A stretch of 64,000 nt of DNA. Source: Candidatus Zhuqueibacterota bacterium (GTDB lineage Bacteria > Zhuqueibacterota > Zhuqueibacteria > Zhuqueibacterales > Geothermadaptataceae). A model generated the notes under the pieces. It worked only from the letters and a program-made list of their open reading frames with translations, searched no databases and was not told where the DNA came from. Shown one piece after another: positions 2,121 through 46,048 of this stretch. Each line of letters opens with the position of its first letter. Position 1 is the first letter of the stretch. The stretch lies in NCBI GenBank assembly GCA_030950365.1, contig JAUZRQ010000020.1, positions 1 through 64,000 on the forward strand, written 5' to 3'. Position numbers and translations under genes: made by a program.

Positions 2121-2171
2121 CCTGGCCTGTAGCGAAGTGGGCTGGATATCCCTGAACACGGAGGTTTGAAT

Positions 2172-5100
2172 ATGCGGCAACATAGGACATACACCATCAC
2201 TTTCATGAAAACAATATGGCTGCTCCTGGGTGCTGTCCTTGCGGCGGAATCGTTGCAGGCGCAGACCATCAATCCGGCAGACATTGAAAAACTGCGCGAA
2301 AAATATCTGGCGGAGAAGGCCCCCAAAATTAATATGGCCGGTATCGTTAAGAAAATTTTGCAAATACCGGTGGGCCAGGGCTGGAGCGGCTACCGGCCCA
2401 CAGAGTGGTATTTTGCCGCTGAACTGGCCTACGCAGCCGGCTCCGGCGGCACCGACCTCAGCCGCTTGCGCAAAGCCCTGGATTTTGCTGAGCGCAATAC
2501 GGTCGAGAACTGGTGGGAAATCGAGGTTGGCATTCCACGGGCGCTGGCCCGCGGCTTGTTGCGTGGCGGCGATCAGCTCCCAGCGGACCTCCGCCAGCGT
2601 CTGGAACAACACCTGCGCAATTTTTTGAGCCGGCAACGATTGCGAGAATGGAACGGCGCCAACACCATTTATCGCGGTTGGACGCGTCTGATCGCCGGGC
2701 TGTATTTTCGCGATGCGGAGCTTTGCCAGCAGGCTGTCAAGTTGTTCGCCAGCGCAACCAGCATCGGAAAATACACCCACATCCGCCCGGATGGCTCGTA
2801 TTTCTTTCACAATGACAAAATGAACATGTTTTATGGCAGCGATCACTTCGTGCAATTTGCCGAATACGTGAACTTTGCGGCCAACACCAGCTTTGCGCTG
2901 GAAAACCATCCCAATCCCTACAACCCGGGCAAGACGGGTATCGAGGTGCTCGGCAAATGGATCGAGGACGGCATTCGCTGGTTTACCTATTACGGCGCCA
3001 TTGACCCGCTGACCATCAACAAGTTTCCGCACAAATGGCATTTGGGCCGCATCAAGGCCGGGCTGCGCGAGCTGGTTGCCTCCGGCTCGCCGGGACTGTC
3101 GCCCTACTGGCAGAGCATACAGGACATTCTCAACGATTCTCCCAATCCGCTGGGCGCGCGCGCCTTCCCGTCGTCGCGGTATCTGGCCGTACGCCGGGAT
3201 CGGTTCTTTGCCGGTCTGGTGCTGATGGACCTGGTGGTGCCGCACCTGGAAGCGTCCTCGTTCGCGCCCATGTTTGGCGCCGTGAACTTGGTCACCCCGC
3301 AAACGGTGGACCGCATTTCGCGCACCCCGGGAGATCAGAATGTTTCCGAAGATATTCTGAACGTGCCGTCGTCGCTACTTTCCACGATGACTGTGCCGAA
3401 ACTGTTTTTCCCGGATGTGGCCAATCCCGGCTCCGAGCACTCGAACCGCGTGCACATCAACGAGATTACTGATATCGCGAAACAGTGGGGCTATTACGGG
3501 GTCACAACCCTTGATAGCTATTTTGCCATGGCGGCGCAGCACTTGCGCAGCAGTGAGGGCCAGTTTCGGATGAAAAAATCCTGGTTTTTCTTTGATGATG
3601 AAATCGTGGTGCTGATCAGCGATCTGCGCAGCCAGGGCCGTTTTGGGCCGGTGGTCACCTGGCTGCAGACCTTCCGGCCAGGCGGCAGCGCGCTGGCCAC
3701 CGATCGCGGCGTGAAATCGCTGCCCACCGGCTCGGGCAGCAACGATATCGGTTTGACGCGCTGGGCGCACGCGCGCGGATGGGGATTCTATTTTCCGGAT
3801 CCGGTGTATCTCGTGGCTGAGGGTCGTAGCCGCGGTTTCACCCGGCTGACAGTGGATCATCAGCGCATGAACCGGCAGGACCGGCTGGCCTTTGTGCTGC
3901 TGCCGAACCGCAGCGAGGCCGAGGTTCGCAATTACAACGGTATCGAAATCCTGCGGCAGGACGGCAATTTGCATTTGGTCCGCGATCGGTCCTCGCAGGT
4001 GGTGGGAGCGGCCTTTTTCGCGCCGGTTTCCACTGGCTGGATTGCATCCAATCTTCCGGGCTATGTCCTGTATCAGGCGCGCGGGCAGCGGTTCCGCCTC
4101 ACGCTATACAATCCGCACAAAGAAAAATCCCTGCCGGTGCGGCTTTCGCATGAGGGCAATCCGGTGAATCCCATGGATGATGTGAAAATTGACGAAAGCG
4201 CGGCCACGCACCACCTGTACCGCATCCGTGTGCCGTTTGTGCTGAACAAAGGCGCCGGCGATGGTTTGAATCTGTTCGATCTGGCTTCCGCCGGCAATCA
4301 GGGCACAGAACTGATCGTGAATTTGCGTGTGTACCGTAAATTTGAAATCGAAGCGGAAAAGAATAGCGATGGTTCTTACAGCATTGTCCGGGCAACCATC
4401 AACCTCAACGATACCGGAAAGGATGGCAGTAGTGCGCAGCAGCCGGTTCCGCCGCAGCCGCAACCACCGGTGGCCGTGCTGCGATCGAGCTACCAGGCCA
4501 AAGCCGGTGTCCCCCTGCAATTCGATGCGTCGGGGTCGTACGATCCGGATGGTGGTAGCATTCAAGAATACATCTGGAATTTTGGCGATGGTGCTACTGC
4601 GCGCGGCGCCCGGGTGAGCCATAGTTATGCCAGCGCCGGCACCTATACAGGGTCCCTGCGACTGCGCGATGATGAAGGCCAGGAAACCACGGCCAATTTT
4701 ACCGTGAATGTATCACCAGCGCAAACGGCTGGCCCGGTTATGGTCATCCGTATTACCGCCGATGATCAATATGAGCTTTACGTGAACGGGGCATTCGTGG
4801 GCCGGGGTGAGCAGTGGGAGACCGCAGAAGAGTATCGCGTGCCGCTGAGCTCTGGAAAAAACGTCATCGCCGTTAAAGCCGTGAACCAGGCCAGTGCCGG
4901 CGGCATTCTTGCTGAGATTCAGGTGGACGGCAAAACATTTTTTACCAACACCAACTGGCGTGTGAGTTTGAACGAGGCGCAGGACTGGACCCGGCCTGAT
5001 TACAACGATCAGACCTGGTCACAGGCGGCATCGTTTGGTAAACACGGCTACGCGCTGCCGTGGGCCCAGTTCCGCAACGTGGAGGGGCTGGCCCGGGATA

Positions 5101-5228
5101 TTCCAGAATGGATATGGTCGAAAGACAATTACAAAGATTCACCAGTATATTTTCGCTACACTATCAATTTGAGCCAGGATGCCGAACCGCCCGCCGCGCC
5201 AAAAGGGGTTCGCGCAATTGTGGAATAA
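2172..5228 (+). CDS. Secreted polysaccharide lyase family 8 protein with PKD and galactose-binding-like domains
   Basis: ATG 2172 has GGAGG seven bases upstream; an in-frame TTG (2166) and a Met (2205, MKTIWLLLGAVLAAESLQAQ) are alternatives, and all include the signal peptide. Residues ~40-340 form the alpha-toroid of PL8 lyases (NWWEIEVGIPRALARGLL, GANTIYRGW, DGSYFFHND). Residues ~370-720 form the beta-sandwich (VHINEITDIAKQWG, KSWFFFDDEIVVLISDLRS). Candidate catalytic residues by family position are N164, H213 and Y221. A PKD domain (~780-860, WNFGDGATARG) and a beta-sandwich like those of rhamnosidase accessory domains (~870-1000, ELYVNGAFVGRG) follow. PL8 enzymes beta-eliminate uronic-acid polymers (hyaluronan, chondroitin, xanthan side chains); the substrate here is unknown. 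The C-terminus DAEPPAAPKGVRAIVE mirrors that of the preceding gene. Confidence 0.8.
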   Translation: MRQHRTYTITFMKTIWLLLGAVLAAESLQAQTINPADIEKLREKYLAEKAPKINMAGIVKKILQIPVGQGWSGYRPTEWYFAAELAYAAGSGGTDLSRLRKALDFAERNTVENWWEIEVGIPRALARGLLRGGDQLPADLRQRLEQHLRNFLSRQRLREWNGANTIYRGWTRLIAGLYFRDAELCQQAVKLFASATSIGKYTHIRPDGSYFFHNDKMNMFYGSDHFVQFAEYVNFAANTSFALENHPNPYNPGKTGIEVLGKWIEDGIRWFTYYGAIDPLTINKFPHKWHLGRIKAGLRELVASGSPGLSPYWQSIQDILNDSPNPLGARAFPSSRYLAVRRDRFFAGLVLMDLVVPHLEASSFAPMFGAVNLVTPQTVDRISRTPGDQNVSEDILNVPSSLLSTMTVPKLFFPDVANPGSEHSNRVHINEITDIAKQWGYYGVTTLDSYFAMAAQHLRSSEGQFRMKKSWFFFDDEIVVLISDLRSQGRFGPVVTWLQTFRPGGSALATDRGVKSLPTGSGSNDIGLTRWAHARGWGFYFPDPVYLVAEGRSRGFTRLTVDHQRMNRQDRLAFVLLPNRSEAEVRNYNGIEILRQDGNLHLVRDRSSQVVGAAFFAPVSTGWIASNLPGYVLYQARGQRFRLTLYNPHKEKSLPVRLSHEGNPVNPMDDVKIDESAATHHLYRIRVPFVLNKGAGDGLNLFDLASAGNQGTELIVNLRVYRKFEIEAEKNSDGSYSIVRATINLNDTGKDGSSAQQPVPPQPQPPVAVLRSSYQAKAGVPLQFDASGSYDPDGGSIQEYIWNFGDGATARGARVSHSYASAGTYTGSLRLRDDEGQETTANFTVNVSPAQTAGPVMVIRITADDQYELYVNGAFVGRGEQWETAEEYRVPLSSGKNVIAVKAVNQASAGGILAEIQVDGKTFFTNTNWRVSLNEAQDWTRPDYNDQTWSQAASFGKHGYALPWAQFRNVEGLARDIPEWIWSKDNYKDSPVYFRYTINLSQDAEPPAAPKGVRAIVE

Positions 5229-5372: not shown

Positions 5373-6629
5373 GTGAAGATTTTAATGGTTGACAAGTATT
5401 ATTTCATCAAAGGCGGGGCGGAGCGATATTATTTTGAGCTGACCAAGACCCTCGAGGAGCGGGGCCACGAGGTCATCCCTTTCTCCATGAAACATCCGGA
5501 CAATTTTCCCACCGACTACGAGCCGTACTTTGTCGACAACATCGAATTCAATGGGCTTTCGCTGGCGCAAAAAATTCGCCATGCGCCGGACATCATCGGC
5601 CGGGTGATCTGGTCGCGCAAAGCCAAAGAGGCGATCGTTCGCCTGGTGGATAAAGTCAAACCCGACATCGCGCATCTGCACATGATCGACCACCAGCTTT
5701 CGCCGTCCATCCTGCAGGGCCTCAAAGAGCGCCGCATTCCCATTATCCAGACGTGTCACCAGTACAAGCACGTTTGCCCGAGCTACCGGTTATACATTAT
5801 GCATAAAAACCAGATTTGCGAGAAATGCATTTCGGGGCGGTTTTATCATGCGGTAGTGGAGAAATGTCACAAAAATTCTCTGTCAGCAAGCGCCATTGTC
5901 GCTATTGAAAGTTACATTCATAAATGGCTAAAAATTTACGACCTCATTGATGTTTTTCATGTTCCGAGTCGATTTTTGGGAGGGAAATTGCAGGAGGCAG
6001 GATACCCATCCGAGAAAATCTGGCATTGTAACTACACCATCAATTTGCGGGATTATCCCTATCATCCGGATGCGAAAGATTATTTTGTGTATTACGGCCG
6101 ATTGAGTGAGGAAAAGGGGATTCTGACCCTGCTGAAGGCCAAGCAGCGTCTGCCGACTCCAAAACTCTACATTATTGGCGATGGCCCGCAGCGGCCGGCG
6201 CTCGAGGCGTTTGTGCGGGAACAACGGGTGGAAAATGTGGAGTTTCTCGGCAATCGCGGCGGACAGGAGCTGATCAGGCTGGTGCAGAACAGCCGGTTTG
6301 TGGTGGTGCCGTCGGAGTGGTATGACAATTCGCCGCTGGTGATCTATGAATCGTTTTCCATGGGCAAGCCGGTGATTGTCAGCACGCTGGGCGGCATGCC
6401 GGAATTGGTCGAGCCGGGGGGGGATGGCTTTCATTTTTCACCGGGCGATGTGGAGCAGCTCACCGATCGGATTCAGGCGCTGTGGCAAAACCCCGATCTC
6501 TGCCGTCAGATGGGCGAAAGGGCTCGCCAGAAGGCGGAGCGCGAATTCAGTCCCGAAGCGCATTACGAAAAATTGATGACGGTTTATCACCGATTAACCG
6601 ATAAAATCCAGACGAAGGTGACCATGTGA
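5373..6629 (+). CDS. Glycosyltransferase family 4 with cysteine-rich insertion
   Basis: The start is GTG at 5373, set by GGAGGAG at 5362-5368. The 418-residue protein begins MKILMVDKYYFIKGGAERYY, the usual GT4 N-terminal glycine loop. It carries a Cys cluster at ~130-170 (CHQYKHVCPSY, ICEKC, EKCHKN) found in a subset of GT4 enzymes and possibly zinc-binding. The C-terminal donor domain has YYGRLSEEKG and PSEWYDNSPLVIYES. In that last motif the first Glu of the classic EX7E is an Asp (DX7E), a conservative change seen by eye. About 144 bases separate it from the lyase gene, with no clear gene between. It likely adds one sugar to the lipid-linked repeat unit at the inner face of the cytoplasmic membrane. 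Donor and acceptor are unknown. Confidence 0.9.
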   Translation: MKILMVDKYYFIKGGAERYYFELTKTLEERGHEVIPFSMKHPDNFPTDYEPYFVDNIEFNGLSLAQKIRHAPDIIGRVIWSRKAKEAIVRLVDKVKPDIAHLHMIDHQLSPSILQGLKERRIPIIQTCHQYKHVCPSYRLYIMHKNQICEKCISGRFYHAVVEKCHKNSLSASAIVAIESYIHKWLKIYDLIDVFHVPSRFLGGKLQEAGYPSEKIWHCNYTINLRDYPYHPDAKDYFVYYGRLSEEKGILTLLKAKQRLPTPKLYIIGDGPQRPALEAFVREQRVENVEFLGNRGGQELIRLVQNSRFVVVPSEWYDNSPLVIYESFSMGKPVIVSTLGGMPELVEPGGDGFHFSPGDVEQLTDRIQALWQNPDLCRQMGERARQKAEREFSPEAHYEKLMTVYHRLTDKIQTKVTM

Positions 6630-9672: not shown

Positions 9673-11112
9673 ATGAGTACACTCAATCGACTGTTTAAAA
9701 ATACGACGGCACTGGTGGTGGCGAAGGGAATCCAGCCACTCATTTCTCTGTTTTTAATCATCACCATCACCAAAAAGCTCGATGTGTCCGGCCTTGGCGC
9801 CTACATCACCATTCTGAGCTTTGTTGAAATCTTTCAGATTATCGCCGCGTTCGGCCTGCGCAATCTGCTCACCCGGGAGGTGGCTCAAAACCGGGACCGC
9901 GCCGGTAGCTATTTCGCCGCCGTGCCGATGATCACGATCATCTCCAGCGGCGCCGCCATGGCCGTCATGATCCTGGCCGTGCACCTGCTGAGCAAAGAGC
10001 CGATCGTCGAAAAAGGTGCTATCATTATTTCGCTTAGCCTGGTGGCGGCGGCCATGGCCGAAGCCTACGAGGGCATCATTGGCGGCTTCGAAAAGCTCAG
10101 CCGGGTGGGACTGGCCTGGTTCATTGAAAATGTGTCGCGCGTTTTGATCAGTATCGCCCTGTTGTTTGCCGGCTTCGGGCTGTTTTCGCTGTTGTGGGTG
10201 TACATCGCAGTACGCTATTTGAAGGCGATTTATTATTACTTTTATATACGGCGTCTCATTGGGTCCCAGCCTGCATCCGTGAGCTGGCCATTCATCAAAG
10301 AGCTTCTGGTACAGGCGCGCGTGTTTGCGCTGATCATGGTGTGCGTGATGATTTACTGGAAAGCCGACGTGGTGATGCTGCAGTCCATGAAAACCACGGA
10401 TGACGTGGGCTACTACTCGGCCGCGCACCGGATTTTCATGATGGCGCGCATCCTGGTCACTGGCTTTATGACCTCGTTTTTCCCGGTCATCGCCAATTTG
10501 TACAAGACCTCGGCAGCGCAGTTCGAGAAAGCGTGCAAGCAGGCCATCCGGTTTTTGGTGATTATTACAGTGCCCATCGCCATTGCCGTTTCGCTATTGG
10601 CCCGGCCGATTCTCATGTTCGTATTCGGCGAAGACTTGCTGCCGTCGGTGCTGGTGCTGCAGATATTGATCTGGGTGGTGGTGCCGTATGGCATTTCGCA
10701 GGTGTTTGCTTACGCGCTGGTGTCCAGCAACCGCCAACGGTTCGATCTGTACGTCAATATTTTGAGCATGTTTGCCAATTTGCTGTTAAATTATCTATTG
10801 ATTCCCAAATACAACTACTACGGTGCTGCCGCCGCGACTCTGATTTCGATTCACATTTATGTGTTGTTTCAATTGCCGTTCATTTTTCCACGGATATTCT
10901 CGCTGCAGCCGGGGAGCATTTTGCGTACCGGGTTGAAAATTCTGGCAGCGTCCGCGGTGATGGTGGCATTCATTCTGCTGGCCCGGCATGCATCTTTCAT
11001 GATCACAGGTCCGCTCAGCGTGCTGGTGTATTTTGCGGCCATTTATTTTGTGCGCGTTGTGCCAGGTGAGGACCTGCAGGTGTTCGCTCGCATGTTGAGG
11101 CGACCGGCCTAG
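9673..11112 (+). CDS. Polysaccharide flippase (Wzx/MATE-like, oligosaccharide exporter)
   Basis: A 479-residue, strongly hydrophobic protein with about 12-14 membrane segments across its length and short basic loops. It matches the polysaccharide biosynthesis/Wzx group of the MOP superfamily: an N-terminal segment with NTTALVVAKGIQPLISLFL, a middle KADVVMLQSMKTTDDVGYYSAAHRI (the conserved DxxML...G.Y..A pattern), and PILMFVFGEDLLPSVLVLQI. It would flip lipid-linked oligosaccharide units from the cytoplasmic to the periplasmic face. Neighbouring transferases support this role. No polymerase (Wzy-like) is seen in the window; it could lie upstream of base 1. Confidence 0.88.
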   Translation: MSTLNRLFKNTTALVVAKGIQPLISLFLIITITKKLDVSGLGAYITILSFVEIFQIIAAFGLRNLLTREVAQNRDRAGSYFAAVPMITIISSGAAMAVMILAVHLLSKEPIVEKGAIIISLSLVAAAMAEAYEGIIGGFEKLSRVGLAWFIENVSRVLISIALLFAGFGLFSLLWVYIAVRYLKAIYYYFYIRRLIGSQPASVSWPFIKELLVQARVFALIMVCVMIYWKADVVMLQSMKTTDDVGYYSAAHRIFMMARILVTGFMTSFFPVIANLYKTSAAQFEKACKQAIRFLVIITVPIAIAVSLLARPILMFVFGEDLLPSVLVLQILIWVVVPYGISQVFAYALVSSNRQRFDLYVNILSMFANLLLNYLLIPKYNYYGAAAATLISIHIYVLFQLPFIFPRIFSLQPGSILRTGLKILAASAVMVAFILLARHASFMITGPLSVLVYFAAIYFVRVVPGEDLQVFARMLRRPA

Positions 11113-15483: not shown

Positions 15484-18400
15484 ATGCAACCACAGCATCC
15501 TATGACAAAGCTTCTGAGGGTGGGAGGATTATTGCTTGGTGTAATTTTGGCCGCAGAAATGGCCTTGGCGCAGGCGGTCAAAATCTTGCCATTAGGCGAT
15601 TCGATTACTCGCGGCGATGGAGGATCTCTGCCATATCATGGTTATCGTGACACGCTGGCGAACAAACTGAACAACGCCGGCATAACTTATGATCTGGTTG
15701 GCTTGCACAACGATGGCGACGGCACCTTTGACGGCGACCATCAGGGTATGCCGGGCAAGCGAGCCGATGAAGTAGCCGATTCAGTGACCACTGTGATGTC
15801 GCTGACCAATCCGGACATCGTACTGGTTCATGTAGGCACGAATGACATCACGCAGGGTCAGACCGTGGCTTCCACGTTGACCGATATCGAGCGCGCCATC
15901 GATGATATTCACGCTTACAATGCCAATGCGAAAATCCTGGTGGCCGGCATCGTGCCCCGTGCGGACGATGCTAATCTGGATAATGAGACCGGGCAACTTA
16001 ATACCAGCATCCAGGACCTGGTCAACCAGAAGAAGGGTGCCGGATATAAAATCTGGTATGTGGATCACTACAACAATTTCAAGAGCAATGCCAATTGGGC
16101 CACGGATTACATGTCGGCTGATGGCGTTCATCCCAACGATACAGGCTATCAGGTCATGGCTGATCTGTTTTTTACGGCCATCCAGACGGCGCTGGCTGCA
16201 GATAGCACCCCTGTCGTGGTGGACGATTTCAACCGTTCCGGCCCAAACCTCGGGGCCAACTGGGATGCCGATCCAGCCTATCAGATTGTGAATAATCAAC
16301 TGTCCAACACCTCTACAGTGGGCAATTGGGTGCTGGCTACCTGGATAGCCAATAGCAACCCGGTGGAGGTGTCGTTCCGCTGGGCCAATAATGCCAATAG
16401 CGCTGGCATCAACGAAGGCGGCCTGGCCCTTCGCTTGGACGCGCCCACCAAAACGGCCAACGGCTATTTGATCTGGTTGGGCACCAGTGCCGGGGCCGCC
16501 GGCAAGCAAATTATACTCTGGACGATCGAAAATGGCGCGCCAGCGACCCCGGTCGCTGAAGTGGCCTATACGCAGCCTGAACCGGCTCCCGGCGATACAT
16601 TCAAAGTCAAGCTCAGCAGCGATGCCAACGGCCATCATTTCGATGTCTATATCAACGGCACACTTTACGGGCGCGTGTCGGACCCGAATACGTTGCAGGG
16701 GAATACCGCACCGCTGTACGCCGGTATTATGCTGAAAGGCGGACTCAACAACGATGTGGATGATTTCAGCTTTACGGTCAATCAGGATGCGACCGCTCCG
16801 GCTACCGTCACGGATTTGATCGTTTCTTCAGTCAGCGGAACTTCCGTAACCCTGCAATGGACGGCGCCCGGGGATGACGGCAATACCGGCACGGCTGCCA
16901 AGTATGAAGTCCGCTATTCGACCAGTTCTATCAACTCCACCAATTTCGATTCCGCCATTCTGGCGCCGAATGCCCCGTTTCCGTCTCCGGCGGGGACTGT
17001 CGAGACCATGACCATCACCGGTTTGAGTACGGGGACTACGTACTATTTTCGCTTGAAAGCCCGTGACGAGGCCGGCAATGTGAGCGATTTGTCCAATCAG
17101 GCGTCGGCCACTACATCGTCTGGAGTCACCACGACGGATAATTTCAACCGGGCGACGCTGGGCGACAATTGGACCGCTGATCCGGCATTTCAGATCGTCA
17201 ACAATGAATTGCACAACACCTCGACGGTCAGTTCCTGGAACTATCTTGCCATCTTCAATGCCAAGAAAAATCCGATCGAGGTCGGGTTTACCTGGGGGCA
17301 GACCGCCGATGCTGCCGGCATCGATGAAGGCGGTTTTGCGCTGATGATGGATGCTGCATCCACCACGGCCAATGGTTATCTGCTGTTCCGGCGCCCGGTG
17401 GCCGGCACCATCGAACTCTGGACGATTGAAAACGGTGCACCGAAGCTGGGGGTGGCGAGTGTGGCTGGAAACCTGGCCGGCCCCACTGCCGGAGATAAGA
17501 TGTCGGTTACCATCCGTTCGGATGCCAGCGGCCATCATTTCGATTTGTATATCAACGGTCAGTTGGATGGCACCGTGACGGATCCGAACAAGCTGCAGGG
17601 CAATGGGGCCACTCTGTATGCTGGCGTCATGTTGAAAGGCAATCTCAATAACCCCATCGACGATTTCTTCGTCACCAGCGAGCTCGGTGCGCCATCGCAA
17701 ATTTTTAAGGTTTCCGGCGACAATCAGCAGGCGCCCGTTGGCCAAAAGCTGCCGCAGCCGCTGGTGGTGCAGGTTACCGATGACAACGGCAACCCCATCG
17801 AAGGTGCCGCGGTCGATTTTACCGTAATCGAAGGCGACGGACAGATCGTTGAACCGCCCGCATACGAATTCCGTGTGGATGTTGGCGGCGAGACGGCCTA
17901 CACCGATGCGCTCGGCAAGATCTGGAATGCCGATCAGGCTTACAGCCCCGGCAGTTACGGATACATTGGCGGCAATCGCGGATACATTGCCAATGCAGCC
18001 ATTGCGAATACCAACGACGACGAACTCTATAAAAGCGAACGCTGGGGATTGACATCGTACAAAATCGATCTTCCCAATGGCGAATACAACGTGTTCTTGC
18101 ACTTTGCCGAACTGGTTTATCAATCCACCGGAAGCCGGGTTTTCAGTGTCAAACTTGAAGGCACTACGGTCTTGAATAATTTCGATATTTTCGCGACTGG
18201 CGGTTACCGCACGGCGGTCGTAAAACAGTTTTCGGTGACCGTCACCGATGGTGTATTGGATATCGATTTCATTTCCAATGTGGAGAATCCCAATATCCAT
18301 GCCATCGAAGTGATAGGCAAATCGGGCGTGGCCACGACCGATGCTTCGGGCAAAGTGTCACGGGAATTCATTGTGGGCTCGACCGTTGGAACTCATCGGG

Positions 18401-21400
18401 TGCAGGTTTCTCCGCTTGGATTCACGGCAACGCCGGTGGTGTTTACGGCCACGGCCACGGCTGGCCAGGCAGTGAAAATCGTCAAGATTAGCGGGGACAA
18501 CCAGAGCGGCGCGGCCGGTCAGCCGCTGGCACAGCCATTCGTGGTGGAGGTCCAGGACTCCGTTGGCAACCCGGTCACTAACTATGATGTGTATTTCGTG
18601 GCCACTCAGGGCGGCGGTTTGCTCGATAAATCCCTGCCGGTCAAAACCGATTCGGTGGGCCGGGCCAGCGTCACCCTGACCGTCGGTAATCAGCATGCCA
18701 CGAATATCGTGAAGGCCTATGCGCCGGGATTGACCGGATCGCCGGTCTCGTTTACAGCTACGGCCACCTCCGGAATCGCGGCCAAAATTGAAAAGGTCAG
18801 CGGCGATAATCAGACCGGCATAGTCAATCAAGCACTGGCCAATCCAATTGTTGCACAAGTGCTGGATTCCAACAATCAGCCGGTGCCGGATTTTCCGGTG
18901 AATCTTAGTGTGAGTGGCGGCGGCAGCACCGATCAAGGAAGCTTGTTAAGTAATCCTACCCTTGAGGGTAATTATTACACCCATAATGATGGACTCGGAT
19001 TAGTTGCTCCTGGATGGGCTGCATGGAATCCAGACAAGAGCGAAACTCATTTCAAGACCACCGGATTTAATTCTGCTTCGGCGCAACGATTAAATACCAC
19101 TGGTAGTGCTATTGCTGCATCAATTGCTCAAACCATTCCGAGCAGCAATTCGCCTTCAAATGGTTCTAAAGTGTTGTTAAGCTTCTTTTATAAAGCAAGC
19201 GGTGATGTTGATGTAGCGCTTCGTGTGAAGCTAAGAAAAACATTAGATAGTGTATTGGTTGAGCTCGCATTGCCCCCAACAAACGATCAATGGGTTCATG
19301 TGACCCATCCGTTTATCTGGGATGCTAATTATCAACCCTTGCAAATTCATCTTGTTGCGCAAAATAACGTGATTATCGATCTGGACGATGTCAACATTTA
19401 CCACCTCACCGACTCTCAGGGCAAGATTTCCACGACCTGGACTCTGGGACCAACGGCGGGGACGCAGCAGTTGCAGGTGGTTGCCGTAGCTGAGGGCACC
19501 CCGCTGACCAACTCGCCTTTGACGTTTAACGCCACGGCCAATGCAGGCCCCGCGGCGAAACTCGTCGAAGTTAGCGGCAACAACCAGGTCGGATCAGCCA
19601 ATCAGCCGTTGCCAACTGCGTTGAAAGTCATGGTTCAGGATGCCGCCGGCAACCCAAAGCCTGGCCATCCGGTGACGTTTCAGGTAACGCAGGGTGGGGG
19701 AACATTGAATGGTAATTTGACCACCTATACTACTCTCACGGATACGGCTGGTATTGCATCGGCAGTGTTTACCCTGGGACCGAATGCCGGAGTGAATAAC
19801 GAAGTTAAAGCGTCGGCCGAACTGAACGGAACGCCGCTGGCAGGTTCACCAATTACCTTTACCGCTCTTGCGGCTGTTCCGGCCAAGATGGTCAAACTAT
19901 CCGGCGATAACCAGACGGGCACGCCCGGGCGGGCTTTAACATCGCCAGTGAAAGTTCAAATCACCGATGCCCAGGATCGGCCTATTTCTGGCTTCAGTGT
20001 TACGTTTACTGTGACCCAGGGCGGGGGTACCGTGAACGGTCAAACCAGTGTCACTGTAACTACGGCTGCAAACGGTGAGGCATCGGTATCCTGGGCGCTG
20101 GGCACCACCCCCGGAGCCGTCAACAAGCTCACCGTGACCGCGCTTTCGCAAGGCTCGCATTTGAGCGGTTCGCCGATGACGTTTACGGCCACAGCCACTG
20201 AACTGGCACAGCTCGTGTTGCTGGACGGTAATAACCAAACGGGCGTAGTAGGCACAGCCCTTGGAACGCCACTGCAGGCTAAGGTGATCGACCAATTGGG
20301 CAATGGCGTTCGTGGTTGGCCGGTAACCTTTAAAGTGACCGAGGGGGGTGGTACGTTGGATGGCGACGTCACTGAAAAAACTGTCAACACCGATAGCCTC
20401 GGTATTGCCAGAGTAACGCTAACCCTGGGCCCGAAACCAGGAACGAATAATAATAAAGTGACCGCATCGACTACATACAAAGGCGGTCCGCTTACAGGGT
20501 CGCCGATCACCTTTGTAGCTTCCGCCACGCACGGCGCTCCGGTGGCCATTGAAAAAGCTGGTGGCGATAATCAGCGTGGCGTGGTCGGGTCGCCGCTGCC
20601 CGAGCCGTTGCAGGTGAAGGTGGTGGACAACCTGGGCAACGGCGTGCCCAATCATAACGTCACGTTTGAGGTTAAAGCCGGCGGCGGTAACATCAACGGC
20701 CAGAAAGTGGTTAATGTGCTGACCAATGCAGATGGTATCGCTCAAGTAACCCTTATCCTGGGCTCAGCAGCCGGTGAAAATAACAATAAAGTTGAAGCCA
20801 GAGCGTTCAGCGGCAATACGCCGCTCGGAAACTCGCCTCTGGTGTTTACCGCCTCGGCCACCAACAGCCCGGCTCGCAATATTCTTTATGTATCGGGTAG
20901 TGGACAGCAGGGCAGTGCGGGCCAGGCCCTTGCGCAGAAGCTCGTCGTTAAAGTTACCGATGGCTCGGCTGCACGTAATCCAGTGCCGAACCATCCGGTA
21001 ACCTTTAAAGTCACCAAAGGTGGTGGCACTCTGAACGGAACCGAAAATGCGCAGGTCGTTGTGGCCACGGATACCAATGGCCTGGCTTCGGCAACCTGGT
21101 ACCTCGGTGGCTTGACGCTTCCAGATTCGCAGCAGGTTGAGGCCAGCTCAACCGATGGTCAGGTTGCGCTGAACGGATCGCCGGTTGTGTTCAAAGCAGC
21201 GGCGACTGCAGGTGCCCCCAGCGCGACGAAGTCCATCGTCGAGGCGACGGGGCCAGTGCCTGCCGATGGTAAATCCTTGTCAAAAGTGACCATTTATCTG
21301 AAAGACAATTTTGGTAATCCGATTTCTGGGCATGCCGTTATTATCAAAGTTTCGGGTAGCGGTAACAGCATCAATCAGCCCCTGTCGCTGACCGACAACC

Positions 21401-23868
21401 AGGGCAAAGCAACCGGCAGCTTCTCCTCCACGCGAGCAGAAACCAAAGTGGTGACGGCGTTCGATTTGAATACGCAAACCGAGATTACCAACGGCGCCAC
21501 GGTGGTCTTTGAACCGTTGGCGGCGGCGCGGCTAGTCTTGGAGAGCGGAAACAACCAGACCCGCAATGTGGGCACAGCGTTAGCCGAGCCACTGGTTGCC
21601 AAGGTGACCGATATCAACGGCAACCCGGTGGCCAACTATCCAGTTAAATTCGAAGTGGAGAGCGGTGGTGGGTATTTTATCGAGATGCAGCCTGTGCGCA
21701 CGGATAGCAACGGTCTGGCGAAGGTAACGTATGTGCTTGGCCAGAGCCCGGGCTTGAATATTGTTAAGGCCTTCGCGCTTGGCCTGAACGTGGCACCGGT
21801 AACCTTCAATGCCACAGGTAAAAGCAACAATGCTAAAAAGATGCTCATGGTATCCGGCAATGAGCAAACCGGCGTTGCGGGGGAGCCGCTACCCAAACCA
21901 CTGGTCGTGGCCATAACCGATGAAAATAACGATCCGATTTACAATTATCCCGTACGCTTCCGCGTGACCTTTGGCGGCGGTTCGGTGAACGGAAGCGCCG
22001 AAGCCACGGCAGTCACCAATGCGTTCGGTCATGCCAGGATTTTCTGGACTCTGGGCGAAGAGCGCGGACCGAACGTGCTCTGGGCAGAGGCTGATGGTCT
22101 GGCTGGATCCCCACAAATTTTCACCGCACAAGGGACTAGCGGCCAGCCCGATACTCTTATCCTTGTTAGCGGCGATGGTATGAAGGGGACGGTCGGACAG
22201 CAGGCTCCGGGCGCTCTGGTTGTGAAAGTTACGGATCAAGGCAAAAAGAACCCGGTATCGAATGTGATCGTGCGTTGGGAATTGATTTCCGGCACCGGAT
22301 CACTATCGGCGGTGCAAACCACAACGAATGACAACGGTATCGCCAGCGTGCGTTTCACTTTCGGTAACGATGCTGGCCCGAGGCTGGTTCGTGCCTATAG
22401 TGATGGCCTGAAAGGCTCTCCGGTGAGTTTCCATCTGTATGGCCAGGCGGCCGGGCCCAAGTCCATGGCTATCGTTGATGGCAACAATCAGGCCGGTACC
22501 ATCGGAAAGCCGCTCAGCCGGCCGATCCGGGTGAAGGTTATCGATCCGTTTAACAATCCGGTGCCCAATGCCAACGTGACTTTTGTCATCACGGCAGGCG
22601 GTGGCAGCTTTGTGGAGTCGCAACCGGTGAAAACCGACGAGCGCGGCATTGCCAAAACCACCTGGATTCTGGGGCCGAATCCGGGCCAGAACCGTGTCTG
22701 GGCGGTGATCCAGGGCGTGACCAACTCACCGCTGGAATTCGTGGCCACCGGAAGCACCAACAACTTCCCGGCATTTACCCAGATCGGTGATAAGGTAATC
22801 AACGAGCTCGATCACATCGAGTTTCAGGTTGAAGCCACCGATGCGGATGGCGACGCGATCACCTATGGCGCTCGCAATTTGCCAGCAGGTGCCGCATTCG
22901 ACTCGATCGGGACACGCATTTTTAGCTGGACCACCGGTTATGCGGACGCCGGCATTCATGACATCATCTTCACCGCCCGGGATAGCAAAGGCGGTCTGTC
23001 GGAAATGCTGGTGACCATTAAAGTGAACAATGTGAACCGTGCGCCGATTCTGGCCAACTGGCAGCCGGCTGCCAACACCATCGAAATTCAGGGCGGCAAG
23101 AACCAGACTTTCCAGATTACCGCAATCGATCCGGATGGCGATCAAATCGGATACTTGTGGTATCTGGACGGCCGCCATGTGGGTTCCAGCAATACCTATC
23201 TGTTCCAGCCGTTTGAAAAAGGCAGCTTCACCCTGACAGCCATGGCCTTCGATCAGCAGGACACGGTGAAAAATACCTGGACCGTGATCACGGCGGTCAA
23301 TCTGGTCAGCTTCTCGGCCACGGCCAAACTGGGCGACGGCGTGCTCTTGCGCTGGATCACCGGCAATGAAACCGGCAATGCTGGTTTCCGCCTCCTGCGT
23401 TCGGAAACCGCGCAAGGGGATTACCATGTGATCACCCGGGAGCTGATTCGCCCGAACGGCACTGGCGATTACGAATTCATCGATAAATCCGTGCAGTCCG
23501 GTAAGCGTTACTTCTACATGCTGGAAGCGGTTTCCGTCGCCGGCGATGTGGAGCGGTTTGGCCCGGTGATGGTGCAGATTGCACTGCCGGAGAAGTTTGC
23601 TCTGTATCCAAACTTCCCGAACCCGTTCAATCCGAGTACCAACATCCGGTTTGAACTTCCGAAAACAACACATGTCACCCTGATCATTTTCAACTCGCTT
23701 GGTCAGGAAGTCGTGCGGTTGGTGGATCGCCCGGTGCCAGCAGGCTCACATACCATCCTCTGGGACGGCCGCGACAAAAACGGCCTCCCGGTGCCTTCCG
23801 GCGTGTACTACTATCTGTTCCGTGCCGGTGATTACAAACAATCGCGCAAAATGCTGCTCCTCAAATAA
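15484..23868 (+). CDS. Giant secreted SGNH-hydrolase/Ig-repeat protein with nested carbohydrate-binding domains and T9SS-like tail
   Basis: A 2794-residue protein with a signal peptide (1-~30). Domains in order: SGNH/GDSL hydrolase (~32-240; S40 in LGDSITRG, N120 in GTND, D213 and H216 in DGVHP, all blocks intact); a concanavalin-like sandwich (~250-430); fibronectin III (~440-545); a second, related sandwich (~550-735); 13 Ig-like Big_1-type repeats (~740-2425, each opening near SGDNQ-G and ending near SP-x-F-x-A-T); a cadherin/He_PIG-like domain; a PKD-like domain; a fibronectin-like domain; and a C-terminal FlgD-like/T9SS type A tail (LYPNFPNPFNPST...MLLLK). Malectin-like and CBM-like modules are inserted inside repeats 1 and 3. 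Likely a cell-surface or secreted esterase-adhesin acting on glycans. Start ATG 15484 has GGAGG 11 bases upstream, and expression is probably sigma-54 dependent. It stands alone, ending at a strong terminator. Confidence 0.9.
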   Translation: MQPQHPMTKLLRVGGLLLGVILAAEMALAQAVKILPLGDSITRGDGGSLPYHGYRDTLANKLNNAGITYDLVGLHNDGDGTFDGDHQGMPGKRADEVADSVTTVMSLTNPDIVLVHVGTNDITQGQTVASTLTDIERAIDDIHAYNANAKILVAGIVPRADDANLDNETGQLNTSIQDLVNQKKGAGYKIWYVDHYNNFKSNANWATDYMSADGVHPNDTGYQVMADLFFTAIQTALAADSTPVVVDDFNRSGPNLGANWDADPAYQIVNNQLSNTSTVGNWVLATWIANSNPVEVSFRWANNANSAGINEGGLALRLDAPTKTANGYLIWLGTSAGAAGKQIILWTIENGAPATPVAEVAYTQPEPAPGDTFKVKLSSDANGHHFDVYINGTLYGRVSDPNTLQGNTAPLYAGIMLKGGLNNDVDDFSFTVNQDATAPATVTDLIVSSVSGTSVTLQWTAPGDDGNTGTAAKYEVRYSTSSINSTNFDSAILAPNAPFPSPAGTVETMTITGLSTGTTYYFRLKARDEAGNVSDLSNQASATTSSGVTTTDNFNRATLGDNWTADPAFQIVNNELHNTSTVSSWNYLAIFNAKKNPIEVGFTWGQTADAAGIDEGGFALMMDAASTTANGYLLFRRPVAGTIELWTIENGAPKLGVASVAGNLAGPTAGDKMSVTIRSDASGHHFDLYINGQLDGTVTDPNKLQGNGATLYAGVMLKGNLNNPIDDFFVTSELGAPSQIFKVSGDNQQAPVGQKLPQPLVVQVTDDNGNPIEGAAVDFTVIEGDGQIVEPPAYEFRVDVGGETAYTDALGKIWNADQAYSPGSYGYIGGNRGYIANAAIANTNDDELYKSERWGLTSYKIDLPNGEYNVFLHFAELVYQSTGSRVFSVKLEGTTVLNNFDIFATGGYRTAVVKQFSVTVTDGVLDIDFISNVENPNIHAIEVIGKSGVATTDASGKVSREFIVGSTVGTHRVQVSPLGFTATPVVFTATATAGQAVKIVKISGDNQSGAAGQPLAQPFVVEVQDSVGNPVTNYDVYFVATQGGGLLDKSLPVKTDSVGRASVTLTVGNQHATNIVKAYAPGLTGSPVSFTATATSGIAAKIEKVSGDNQTGIVNQALANPIVAQVLDSNNQPVPDFPVNLSVSGGGSTDQGSLLSNPTLEGNYYTHNDGLGLVAPGWAAWNPDKSETHFKTTGFNSASAQRLNTTGSAIAASIAQTIPSSNSPSNGSKVLLSFFYKASGDVDVALRVKLRKTLDSVLVELALPPTNDQWVHVTHPFIWDANYQPLQIHLVAQNNVIIDLDDVNIYHLTDSQGKISTTWTLGPTAGTQQLQVVAVAEGTPLTNSPLTFNATANAGPAAKLVEVSGNNQVGSANQPLPTALKVMVQDAAGNPKPGHPVTFQVTQGGGTLNGNLTTYTTLTDTAGIASAVFTLGPNAGVNNEVKASAELNGTPLAGSPITFTALAAVPAKMVKLSGDNQTGTPGRALTSPVKVQITDAQDRPISGFSVTFTVTQGGGTVNGQTSVTVTTAANGEASVSWALGTTPGAVNKLTVTALSQGSHLSGSPMTFTATATELAQLVLLDGNNQTGVVGTALGTPLQAKVIDQLGNGVRGWPVTFKVTEGGGTLDGDVTEKTVNTDSLGIARVTLTLGPKPGTNNNKVTASTTYKGGPLTGSPITFVASATHGAPVAIEKAGGDNQRGVVGSPLPEPLQVKVVDNLGNGVPNHNVTFEVKAGGGNINGQKVVNVLTNADGIAQVTLILGSAAGENNNKVEARAFSGNTPLGNSPLVFTASATNSPARNILYVSGSGQQGSAGQALAQKLVVKVTDGSAARNPVPNHPVTFKVTKGGGTLNGTENAQVVVATDTNGLASATWYLGGLTLPDSQQVEASSTDGQVALNGSPVVFKAAATAGAPSATKSIVEATGPVPADGKSLSKVTIYLKDNFGNPISGHAVIIKVSGSGNSINQPLSLTDNQGKATGSFSSTRAETKVVTAFDLNTQTEITNGATVVFEPLAAARLVLESGNNQTRNVGTALAEPLVAKVTDINGNPVANYPVKFEVESGGGYFIEMQPVRTDSNGLAKVTYVLGQSPGLNIVKAFALGLNVAPVTFNATGKSNNAKKMLMVSGNEQTGVAGEPLPKPLVVAITDENNDPIYNYPVRFRVTFGGGSVNGSAEATAVTNAFGHARIFWTLGEERGPNVLWAEADGLAGSPQIFTAQGTSGQPDTLILVSGDGMKGTVGQQAPGALVVKVTDQGKKNPVSNVIVRWELISGTGSLSAVQTTTNDNGIASVRFTFGNDAGPRLVRAYSDGLKGSPVSFHLYGQAAGPKSMAIVDGNNQAGTIGKPLSRPIRVKVIDPFNNPVPNANVTFVITAGGGSFVESQPVKTDERGIAKTTWILGPNPGQNRVWAVIQGVTNSPLEFVATGSTNNFPAFTQIGDKVINELDHIEFQVEATDADGDAITYGARNLPAGAAFDSIGTRIFSWTTGYADAGIHDIIFTARDSKGGLSEMLVTIKVNNVNRAPILANWQPAANTIEIQGGKNQTFQITAIDPDGDQIGYLWYLDGRHVGSSNTYLFQPFEKGSFTLTAMAFDQQDTVKNTWTVITAVNLVSFSATAKLGDGVLLRWITGNETGNAGFRLLRSETAQGDYHVITRELIRPNGTGDYEFIDKSVQSGKRYFYMLEAVSVAGDVERFGPVMVQIALPEKFALYPNFPNPFNPSTNIRFELPKTTHVTLIIFNSLGQEVVRLVDRPVPAGSHTILWDGRDKNGLPVPSGVYYYLFRAGDYKQSRKMLLLK
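17860..18325 (+). other. Malectin-like domain nested in Ig repeat 1
   Basis: Between the GDGQ bend of repeat 1 and its second half (GVATTDASGKVSREF), a ~155-residue module is inserted. It reads FRVDVGGETAYTDALGKIW, WGLTSYKIDLPNGEYNV, LHFAELVYQSTGSRVF and PNIHAIEVIG, the pattern of malectin (di-glucose-type glycan-binding) domains. Boundaries are approximate. Confidence 0.75.
18938..19407 (+). other. CBM-like domain nested in Ig repeat 3, AT-rich
   Basis: At the same GGG bend of repeat 3, a ~155-residue beta-sandwich is inserted (NPTLEGNYYTHNDG, PGWAAWNPDKSETHF, VLLSFFYKASGDVDVALRVK, IIDLDDVNIYHL), resembling CBM4/9- or CBM16-type sugar-binding modules. The repeat resumes at DSQGKISTTW. Hand counts give 22/60 G+C for 19141-19200 and 23/60 for 19201-19260, against 30-35/60 in flanking lines, so the DNA composition shifts with the insertion. 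Confidence 0.65.
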
Positions 23869-43311: not shown

Positions 43312-43354
43312 GGGAAGCGCGGTTCCCCCTGCGGAACCCGCTTCCCATTTTTTT
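43312..43354 (+). terminator. Terminator after mdh
   Basis: GGGAAGCG-c-GGTTCC pairs with GGAACC-CGCTTCCC (14 pairs) around CCCTGC, followed by A and seven T. Confidence 0.95.
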
Positions 43355-43463: not shown

Positions 43464-43525
43464 CCGAATGTACCCTTCTTTAAATTGCCCAAATTTCAAA
43501 AATCAAGTTCGGGAGAGAGTGACGC

Positions 43526-46048
43526 ATGCACCGAGGAGCGATGGCCCTTGTCCTGGCTGCCCTGGTGCTGGGTGCCCTGCCTCTGCGGAGTCAACCGCAA
43601 TCTATTCCATACCGCATGTGGGAACTGCAGGATAGCGATGAAGCGTATCTGAAAAAGATGATCCGGCTGGCGCCGAAATACCACATCAATGCCATTCAAT
43701 TTTCGCACGCCATTGTCCACCACGCGCATCAGGTTCTGGATGAGCCCGACCGGGCCGCCAAACTGCGGCGGCTGATCCAATTGGCCAAATCCGAAGGGCT
43801 GCACACCTACATCTGGACGCATGAATTCGAGCATGTGCCCGAGGAATTTGTGGTTGACGGCAAGCTGCAGGTCGACTCGACCCGCATCTGGCAATGGCTG
43901 AGGCAAAAATATGAACAAGTGTATGCGCTGCTGCCCGATCTCGCCGGCATCGTGCTGACGGCCACCGAAACCGATTTCCGGCCCAATGACACCAAAAAGG
44001 TGCATTCCAAAATGACGCCGGAGGCGATTTTGACGCGAGTCGCGAATACGCTGTACGAAGTAAGCGCCACAAGAGGCAAGAGGCTGATTTTTCGCACCTT
44101 CACTCAGAATCCCGAGCAATTTCAGGGCTATCAGCACGCCCTGGCGGCCATGCACCCGGACATCATCATCATGACCAAATGCGTGCCGTTCGACTGGAAT
44201 CCGTTTTTTCCCAACAATTCACTACTGGGCGCCGTGGCGCCGCATCCTCAAATTGTTGAATTTGACCTTGGCCAGGAATACAACGGCCAGTCCAACTTTC
44301 CGTTCGCGGATCCGCAGTATTATTTGAACCGCTGGAACCATGCGCGTTCCAAACAGGTGGCTGGCTTCGTGCTGCGCACCGAGCGGCTGGATCAGCACAT
44401 TGTGGGCACGCCCAATGAGGTGAATTTGTACGCTTTCAAGCTGGCCGTTGAAAATCCAGAGGTGAGTGCAGACGAGGTCTGGCAGGCCTGGGGGCGGCAG
44501 CGCTATGGCCAGAAGGCAGGGCAGCAGATCAAGGCGGTTCTGGAACCGACCGCCTGGGCGGTACGCCACATGTTGTATGTACGAGGCATGTGGTTTTCGG
44601 ATCAATCACAGATCCCGACCGGGATGAATTTGCGTGAATATGTCCAGCAGTACAGGCTATTTGCGCAATATGTGCCGCGGCCGGAATATCAGGCGTTTGC
44701 TCAAAAACTCCTGTCGCCCGATGAAACTCTCATTGATTGGGTGATTGCGGAAAAAGAATCCGCCGTACATCTGGCCAGAACCGCCCTGCAGCGACTGCCG
44801 TCGTTACGGCCGTTCATACAGGAGCGCGATTATTTGCAGCTTTCTACGCAACTGGCCCTGTTGGCCGATTACGCCGCCGTATTCCGGCAGGTGGCCGAGG
44901 TGGCCTTCCGGGCCTATCTGGATCGGCGGGCTCGCGGCGACGGCCGGCGCATGGCCAACCGCAAGGCACTGCTGGCCAGCTTGCAGGAGCTGATGCGGTT
45001 GCGGTTTCTGTATCAAACGCCCCTGCGGCTGTTGCACATGGAGCGCGGACGCGAATCCGACAACGTCCAGCGCATCGACCAATTTGCCAGAGGCATCGCC
45101 AAAATCATGCGGCAACAACGCTGGCTGCGGATTTTGAAAGCGCAATTCTCACGCGATGTCTCGGTCAGGCCCGCATGGCCGGCCGGCATTGTGGTGCCGA
45201 TGTTCACGCCGCTGACCCCGCGGCGGAAAGTAGACTTTTCAGCGCTGCGGGCTTATACGAAGTGGCTGAGCCGGCAGGCGGTGGATGTCCTGCTGCCGTT
45301 TGCCGATACGAATGTCGCCGCATCCATCCCGCTGGCGGATCGTCAACGCGCAATATCCAACATCGTGACGGCAACGGCCGGCAAACGGCTGGTGTTTCCG
45401 GTGATTCCTTCGAATGATGCACAAACGGCGGCTGAAATGGCAGCATATGCGCTGGAAAACCGCGCCGATGGACTTTGCATCGATTTTTCTCCCGCACAGG
45501 ATGATCCAGAAGAAGAATTCATCACGACGGTGCTGAGCATCATGAGCAACTATGACCTACCTGTGATTCTGTTGGCTCAACCGAATGGCAAACGCCGCAC
45601 TCTGGTTGTGGAGATCATCGAGCGAGTACTTGCGCAAACCGACAGGCTGAAGGCTGTGGTGTGCAATGCTGCCGATGCGGCCGTGTTCTGGGATATCGTC
45701 AACCGATTCGGCGATCGGGTCGCGATTCTCGCTAATTCCGAACGCGATTTCATGGCAGCTCTGTTGAGTGGCGGCGCTGGACTGGCGGCAAATGGAAATA
45801 ATGTGTTTCCCAACCTGTCCGATAAACTGGGCGAGGCACTGGCCAACCGGCAGGTAGAGGAGGCCATGCGGTATCAGTTGAGTGCGATGTATTGGCAGAA
45901 ACAGCTCGCTGCGGCCCCCTGGCCTGCTGCCGGGCAGGGGGTCCTGCGTATCATGGGCGTGCCAGTAACCGTGTCTCCTAATGCTATTGAGCGTGCGCAA
46001 TTGCAGCAGTTGCGCAAAAGCTTTAAACAATTGATGATAGAAAAATAG
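43526..46048 (+). CDS. Secreted GH67-like barrel fused to a DapA-like (pseudoenzyme) barrel
   Basis: An 840-residue protein with a signal peptide (MALVLAALVLGALPLRSQ). Residues ~28-330 look like a TIM-barrel glycosidase near GH67-type families (YRMWELQDSDEAYLKKMI, HTYIWTHEFEHVPEE, GIVLTATETDF). Residues ~330-540 are helical with no clear match. Residues ~548-805 follow the DapA/NanA aldolase pattern in order (AGIVVPMFTPLTPRRKVDF, FPVIPSNDAQTAAEMA, YDLPVILLAQPNG, DRLKAVVCNAADA). The GTTGE loop reads ADTNVAAS, the catalytic Tyr of ILYNxP reads LLAQP, and the Schiff-base Lys of GIKE reads VVCN, so this barrel is probably not an aldolase; it may bind a sugar acid. Monocistronic between the mdh terminator and the che genes. 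Confidence 0.7.
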   Translation: MHRGAMALVLAALVLGALPLRSQPQSIPYRMWELQDSDEAYLKKMIRLAPKYHINAIQFSHAIVHHAHQVLDEPDRAAKLRRLIQLAKSEGLHTYIWTHEFEHVPEEFVVDGKLQVDSTRIWQWLRQKYEQVYALLPDLAGIVLTATETDFRPNDTKKVHSKMTPEAILTRVANTLYEVSATRGKRLIFRTFTQNPEQFQGYQHALAAMHPDIIIMTKCVPFDWNPFFPNNSLLGAVAPHPQIVEFDLGQEYNGQSNFPFADPQYYLNRWNHARSKQVAGFVLRTERLDQHIVGTPNEVNLYAFKLAVENPEVSADEVWQAWGRQRYGQKAGQQIKAVLEPTAWAVRHMLYVRGMWFSDQSQIPTGMNLREYVQQYRLFAQYVPRPEYQAFAQKLLSPDETLIDWVIAEKESAVHLARTALQRLPSLRPFIQERDYLQLSTQLALLADYAAVFRQVAEVAFRAYLDRRARGDGRRMANRKALLASLQELMRLRFLYQTPLRLLHMERGRESDNVQRIDQFARGIAKIMRQQRWLRILKAQFSRDVSVRPAWPAGIVVPMFTPLTPRRKVDFSALRAYTKWLSRQAVDVLLPFADTNVAASIPLADRQRAISNIVTATAGKRLVFPVIPSNDAQTAAEMAAYALENRADGLCIDFSPAQDDPEEEFITTVLSIMSNYDLPVILLAQPNGKRRTLVVEIIERVLAQTDRLKAVVCNAADAAVFWDIVNRFGDRVAILANSERDFMAALLSGGAGLAANGNNVFPNLSDKLGEALANRQVEEAMRYQLSAMYWQKQLAAAPWPAAGQGVLRIMGVPVTVSPNAIERAQLQQLRKSFKQLMIEK

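Follow-up and report, generated by a model that had tools for sequence, protein, structure and literature searches.

A likely exported GH67-like hydrolase fused to a DapA-type barrel that has lost the aldolase residues

Layout of the fusion gene and fold of its parts

The window, that is, the whole stretch of 64,000 nucleotides analysed here, comes from a contig of a Candidatus Zhuqueibacterota bacterium and holds one unusual gene between mdh and cheA, the features of which are listed in Table 1. Because a terminator-like hairpin with a T-run follows mdh, the two genes are probably not transcribed together; a simple scan did not list this hairpin, possibly on account of a one-base bulge. The encoded protein has 840 amino acids and begins with a signal-peptide-like segment, its mean hydropathy being 2.5 at the N-terminus and no more than 1.58 elsewhere.

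Table 1 Features of the fusion gene and its upstream region (window coordinates).
Feature	Position	Strand	Basis
Terminator-like hairpin and T-run, 3' of mdh	43312..43354	+	read directly
Ribosome-binding-site-like GGGAGAGAG	43511..43519	+	read directly; ATG 6 bases later
840-aa fusion gene, single ORF, ATG at 43526	43526..46048	+	ORF; ortholog L002:1501-4023
Signal-peptide-like N-terminus, residues 1-23, no lipobox Cys	43526..43594	+	mean hydropathy 2.5
GH67-type barrel, residues 26-358	43601..44599	+	Pfam PF07488, AlphaFold, Foldseek
E148-T149-D150, candidate catalytic-acid region	43967..43975	+	profile alignment, family alignment
D223, equivalent of AguA D364	44192..44194	+	profile alignment; invariant in 8 sequences
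E245, equivalent of AguA E386	44258..44260	+	profile alignment; invariant in 8 sequences
E251, equivalent of AguA E392	44276..44278	+	profile alignment; kept in 7/8 sequences (Q in L003)
Helical bundle, residues 369-541, low confidence from 488	44630..45148	+	AlphaFold; weak PF07477 match below cut-off
DapA/NanA-type barrel, residues 554-773	45185..45844	+	PF00701, AlphaFold, Foldseek
ADTNV replacing GTTGE, residues 593-597	45302..45316	+	alignment with standalone relatives
L683 replacing catalytic Tyr	45572..45574	+	alignment with standalone relatives
V712 replacing Schiff-base Lys, barrel strand 6	45659..45661	+	alignment, AlphaFold
C-terminal helices, residues 774-840, conserved EEAMxYQLxAxxWQKQLAAxPWPAAGQ	45845..46045	+	ortholog alignment, AlphaFold

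A search for the same fusion in other genomes, as suggested with the initial annotation of this DNA, turned it up in one further genome within the searched set. This ortholog, also of 840 aa, belongs to candidate division KSB1 bacterium isolate S140_5 (G001), a member of the same genus. The two proteins share 67% identity overall in an 840-column pairwise alignment without gaps, and the order mdh, fusion gene, cheA is common to both genomes of the genus. An assembly join or a frameshift that merged two genes might be suspected, given the unusual domain combination and a related record that is metagenome-assembled, but the same 840-aa ORF with the same neighbours is present in an independent same-genus assembly. 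Since a second genome carries the ortholog, an artefact or a chance join is ruled out, and we give this explanation practically no weight. The fusion is therefore real, conserved and unusual, and confined to one genus in the searched set.

Full-length matches were obtained in two of the 82 genomes of the phylum that were searched, and the other genomes of the family gave no match at the search threshold. When 84,980 species genomes were scanned with two peptide patterns, 14 loci were obtained. In one of them (the S140_5 gene) the DapA part is present; the remaining loci either stop at the end of the helical bundle or have different domains attached. Short exact patterns must have passed over many relatives, so that the fusion can be called rare only with respect to the searched set. 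Among viral contigs we found no relative. As for a conserved empty site, other genes follow mdh in the four further family genomes that are readable downstream of it, so that the locus differs there, and no clean insertion point could be made out. Two matches running through a stop, in G004 and G057, were considered as traces of a split-gene or operon origin and were rejected: one proved to be a plain dapA in dapB/dapD-like surroundings, the other a gene that follows a GlnD-like gene.

A strongly hydrophobic stretch, residues 5-20, is common to the two orthologs, whose N-termini have mean hydropathies of 2.5 and 2.8, and the protein is therefore likely exported. Of the earlier description as secreted, the N-terminal feature thus stands in two species, and export itself is what its hydropathy predicts. 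Pfam assigned residues 26-257 to Glyco_hydro_67M (PF07488, E 8e-10, 38.7 bits, cut-off 23.5) and residues 553-817 to DHDPS (PF00701, E 2e-14, 53.2 bits, cut-off 22.1). The AlphaFold models of the window protein and its ortholog (mean pLDDT 78 each) contain two barrels with a helical bundle in between; in both, the stretch around residues 488-552 is poorly predicted (pLDDT <50 in the window protein), and the relative placement of the barrels is without confidence (pTM 0.57-0.60). With Foldseek, the N-terminal part matched GH67 alpha-glucuronidases including 1mqq and 1k9d (E about 1e-14; 2e-14 for the window protein), and the C-terminal part matched NanA (E 4e-13, TM 0.88 on NanA length) with TM values of 0.86-0.89 on the length of an E. 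coli-type NanA, or 0.82-0.86 for the ortholog. Pfam, two AlphaFold models and Foldseek therefore bear out, in two species, the previously proposed architecture of an apparently exported GH67-like part joined to a barrel of the DapA type.

The GH67-like hydrolase and its standalone relatives

The window protein shares its barrel fold with the GH67 alpha-glucuronidases (Geobacillus AguA, 1k9d/1mqq; Cellvibrio GlcA67A, 1gqi), and, as in AguA, equivalents of D364, E386 and E392 are followed by a helical region. It differs from these enzymes in several respects: about 16% of residues are identical in the structural alignment, the protein is apparently exported, and a DapA-type barrel is fused to it. 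In addition, Glyco_hydro_67N has no Pfam match in the 840-aa protein, in which the barrel stands directly at the start, and the match to Glyco_hydro_67C (PF07477), in a region that is helical in the AlphaFold model, reaches 16.1 bits, below the cut-off of 27. The N-terminal barrel is thus GH67-like, as had been claimed, and with the GH67N domain missing the hydrolase is not a full member of GH67.

D223, E245 and E251 are identical in the ortholog. In AguA, with residue numbers counted from the printed alignment, E285 and E386 are mutated positions according to PDB titles. We take D364 and E392 to be the base residues. AguA E285 aligns with D150 in the profile alignment, but in the family alignment most members retain E148, so that the predicted catalytic acid may be either E148 or D150. 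The hydrolase is probably an exo-uronosidase acting on uronic-acid-containing glycans.

The closest counterparts of the hydrolase part form an unnamed family of standalone GH67-like proteins of about 530-650 aa, which have the barrel and helical bundle of the window protein at 28-35% identity. The helical bundle is the native C-terminal part of this GH67-like family. Members occur in KSB1, Calditrichota, Fulvivirga, Saprospiraceae, Sedimentisphaerales, Phycisphaerales and Armatimonadota, and the one unfused member that was checked had no NCBIfam match. Unlike the window protein, they stop after the helices or bear other C-terminal domains; among the loci checked, the DapA domain is found in the same-genus ortholog only. 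The C-terminal module is swapped among relatives: in a Calditrichota-labelled genome (L003:278-2953), the GH67-like protein carries a lambda-carrageenase-type beta-propeller.

The neighbours of the standalone genes include GH28, sulfatase, GH92 and GH78 genes and a SusC/SusD pair, which suggests that the family takes part in degrading polysaccharides, in many cases uronic-acid-rich or sulfated glycans. Five loci (L035, L038, L041, L043 and L046) place standalone members in polysaccharide loci with GH28, sulfatases, GH78 and GH92. UxaC, GH28 and a second GH67M gene were not found in either fusion-bearing genome, and since UxaC and GH28 genes are lacking there, the usual glucuronate/pectin context is missing. 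Through the fusion, a GH67-like family comes into view that is widespread and apparently uncharacterised, and whose genes lie next to those of pectinases, sulfatases and rhamnosidases.

Lost aldolase residues and origin of the DapA-type domain

For the second barrel, we aligned the fused pair with 11 standalone relatives, the relatives being placed on residues 541-840. All 11 relatives keep the G-x-x-G-E loop, the Tyr and the Lys. In the fused pair, the position of GTTGE/GGSGE is occupied by ADTNV in the window protein and ADREA in the ortholog, the catalytic Tyr (Y133/Y137) is Leu in both, and by sequence alignment the Schiff-base Lys on strand 6 is Val in both. The replacement of all three features, read earlier from a hand alignment, is hence seen in both orthologs, and no Lys occupies the aligned Schiff-base position. 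The nearest, K709, lies three residues before V712 on the same strand, is kept in the ortholog, and would sit off the Schiff-base position towards the other end of strand 6. The C-terminal part also scored far under the cut-off of every aldolase equivalog in NCBIfam. By both fold and sequence, the second barrel belongs to the DapA superfamily, yet it fails every catalytic test applied and is predicted to be catalytically dead as an aldolase.

A tree of DapA domains grouped the fused pair with standalone proteins of the GGSGE type, apart from true DapA (a six-row branch, 100/99). The stem branch of the pair is very long, at 3.6 changes per site, and its exact sister is not settled in the tree. 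The GGSGE-type clade of KSB1 (L008-L014, L031; motifs GGSGE, YDPRGEG and IKYRT) also contains the nearest BLAST relatives of the fused barrel, at 20-25% identity and weakly joined in the tree. Both its members and the fused domain form a complete (beta/alpha)8 barrel followed by C-terminal helices. In the clade, however, the proteins stand alone and retain the G-x-x-G-E loop, Tyr and Lys, all of which are absent from the apparently exported fused barrel. We found no free-standing GGSGE-type gene in the two fusion-bearing genomes, where the fused gene itself was the top match and other DapA-type genes matched less well. Elsewhere, in the GGSGE-type clade, to which L011:1672-2562 and L012:1462-2388 belong, the gene in two cases comes immediately after a GlnD-like uridylyltransferase gene.

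Selection on the barrel and its possible role

Within the fused pair, identity is 78% in the GH67 barrel, 76% in the helical part and 51% in the DapA-like part. The corresponding pN/pS values are 0.19, 0.22 and 0.47, the last with a bootstrap range of 0.39-0.55; synonymous changes between the two orthologs are saturated. The dead barrel is under purifying selection, with weaker constraint and faster evolution than the GH67 part. These rates bear on whether the barrel is a slowly decaying leftover of a chance fusion. The loss of every catalytic motif, an evolution faster than that of the rest of the protein, the very long stem branch and the restriction to one genus in the searched set would all suit such a decay. 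We nevertheless think it improbable, as the pairwise alignment has neither gap nor stop at saturated synonymous divergence, pN/pS is bounded at 0.55, a complete barrel is predicted in both orthologs, and one face is conserved beyond the level seen in each of the active relatives compared.

Specifically, in the loops at the end of the barrel opposite the old active site, 28 of 33 positions (85%) are identical between the two fused proteins, compared with 19-62% in controls; only two of 220 circular shifts of the mask reach 85%. At 25 positions of the former active site, the pair is 36% identical, against 51% in the rest of the barrel, and the same 25 positions are 76-96% identical in standalone relatives whose overall identity is 40-69%. 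The low active-site identity does not stand out in the shift test (41 of 220), and its force lies in the comparison with the controls; the contrast between the faces stems from one species pair, with residue sets taken from the predicted model after the difference had been seen. The contrast makes a conserved ligand pocket at the old site less likely and favours an interface on the opposite face.

The initial annotation had proposed that the barrel may have become a sugar-acid-binding module that guides the hydrolase. As a carbohydrate- or uronate-binding module, it would deliver the enzyme to its substrate or retain the product. Its fusion to a GH67-like enzyme, the binding of sugar acids by NanA and KDG-aldolase relatives, the frequency of binding modules among the C-terminal add-ons of polysaccharide-degrading enzymes and the beta-propeller in the same place in a relative speak for this proposal. 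With the old pocket poorly conserved across the two species, the anion- and pyruvate-binding residues gone, the conserved surface on the opposite face and nothing that points to a site elsewhere, we consider it unlikely, although sugar binding at some other site of the module is possible. A gain of new catalysis without the Schiff-base Lys appears very improbable: the fold is intact and changes of chemistry are frequent in TIM barrels, but the old pocket has no shared polar set, save for the isolated D594, N687 and a G-N in the loop of strand 8.

On balance, we lean towards an exported GH67-like hydrolase in which a dead aldolase barrel has been reused as a docking or scaffold module. After the fusion, the dead barrel would have served as a folded module in a position where relatives bear other add-on domains, and its docking surface would consist of the face opposite the old pocket together with the C-terminal helices. 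This surface could pack against the cell envelope, a second subunit, or the hydrolase together with its helical bundle. More tentatively, the module may represent a captured class I aldolase barrel that lost its active site, moved its functional surface to the opposite face and became a new kind of non-catalytic CAZyme accessory module.

Our searches of full-text papers, Pfam, NCBIfam, and PDB sequences and folds brought up no carbohydrate-active enzyme described as having a DapA-family module, and the papers searched contained nothing on dead DapA-family proteins. The fusion offers a clear test case of a catalytic TIM barrel turning into a structural part, and with two orthologs and active standalone relatives, the shift of the constrained face is measurable.

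Two other regions of the window, both on the forward strand, deserve mention. An exopolysaccharide-type cluster with its own lyase (2166-5228, 333-2120, 5373-6629 and 9673-11112) contains a PL8-like protein with a PKD domain beside a golvesin-C-domain protein, a glycosyltransferase and a polysaccharide flippase. At 15484-23868, a 2794-aa protein combines a GDSL/SGNH hydrolase with fibronectin III, malectin, several Big_1 Ig-like repeats and an FlgD-Ig C-terminus, and is a putative, very large surface esterase.
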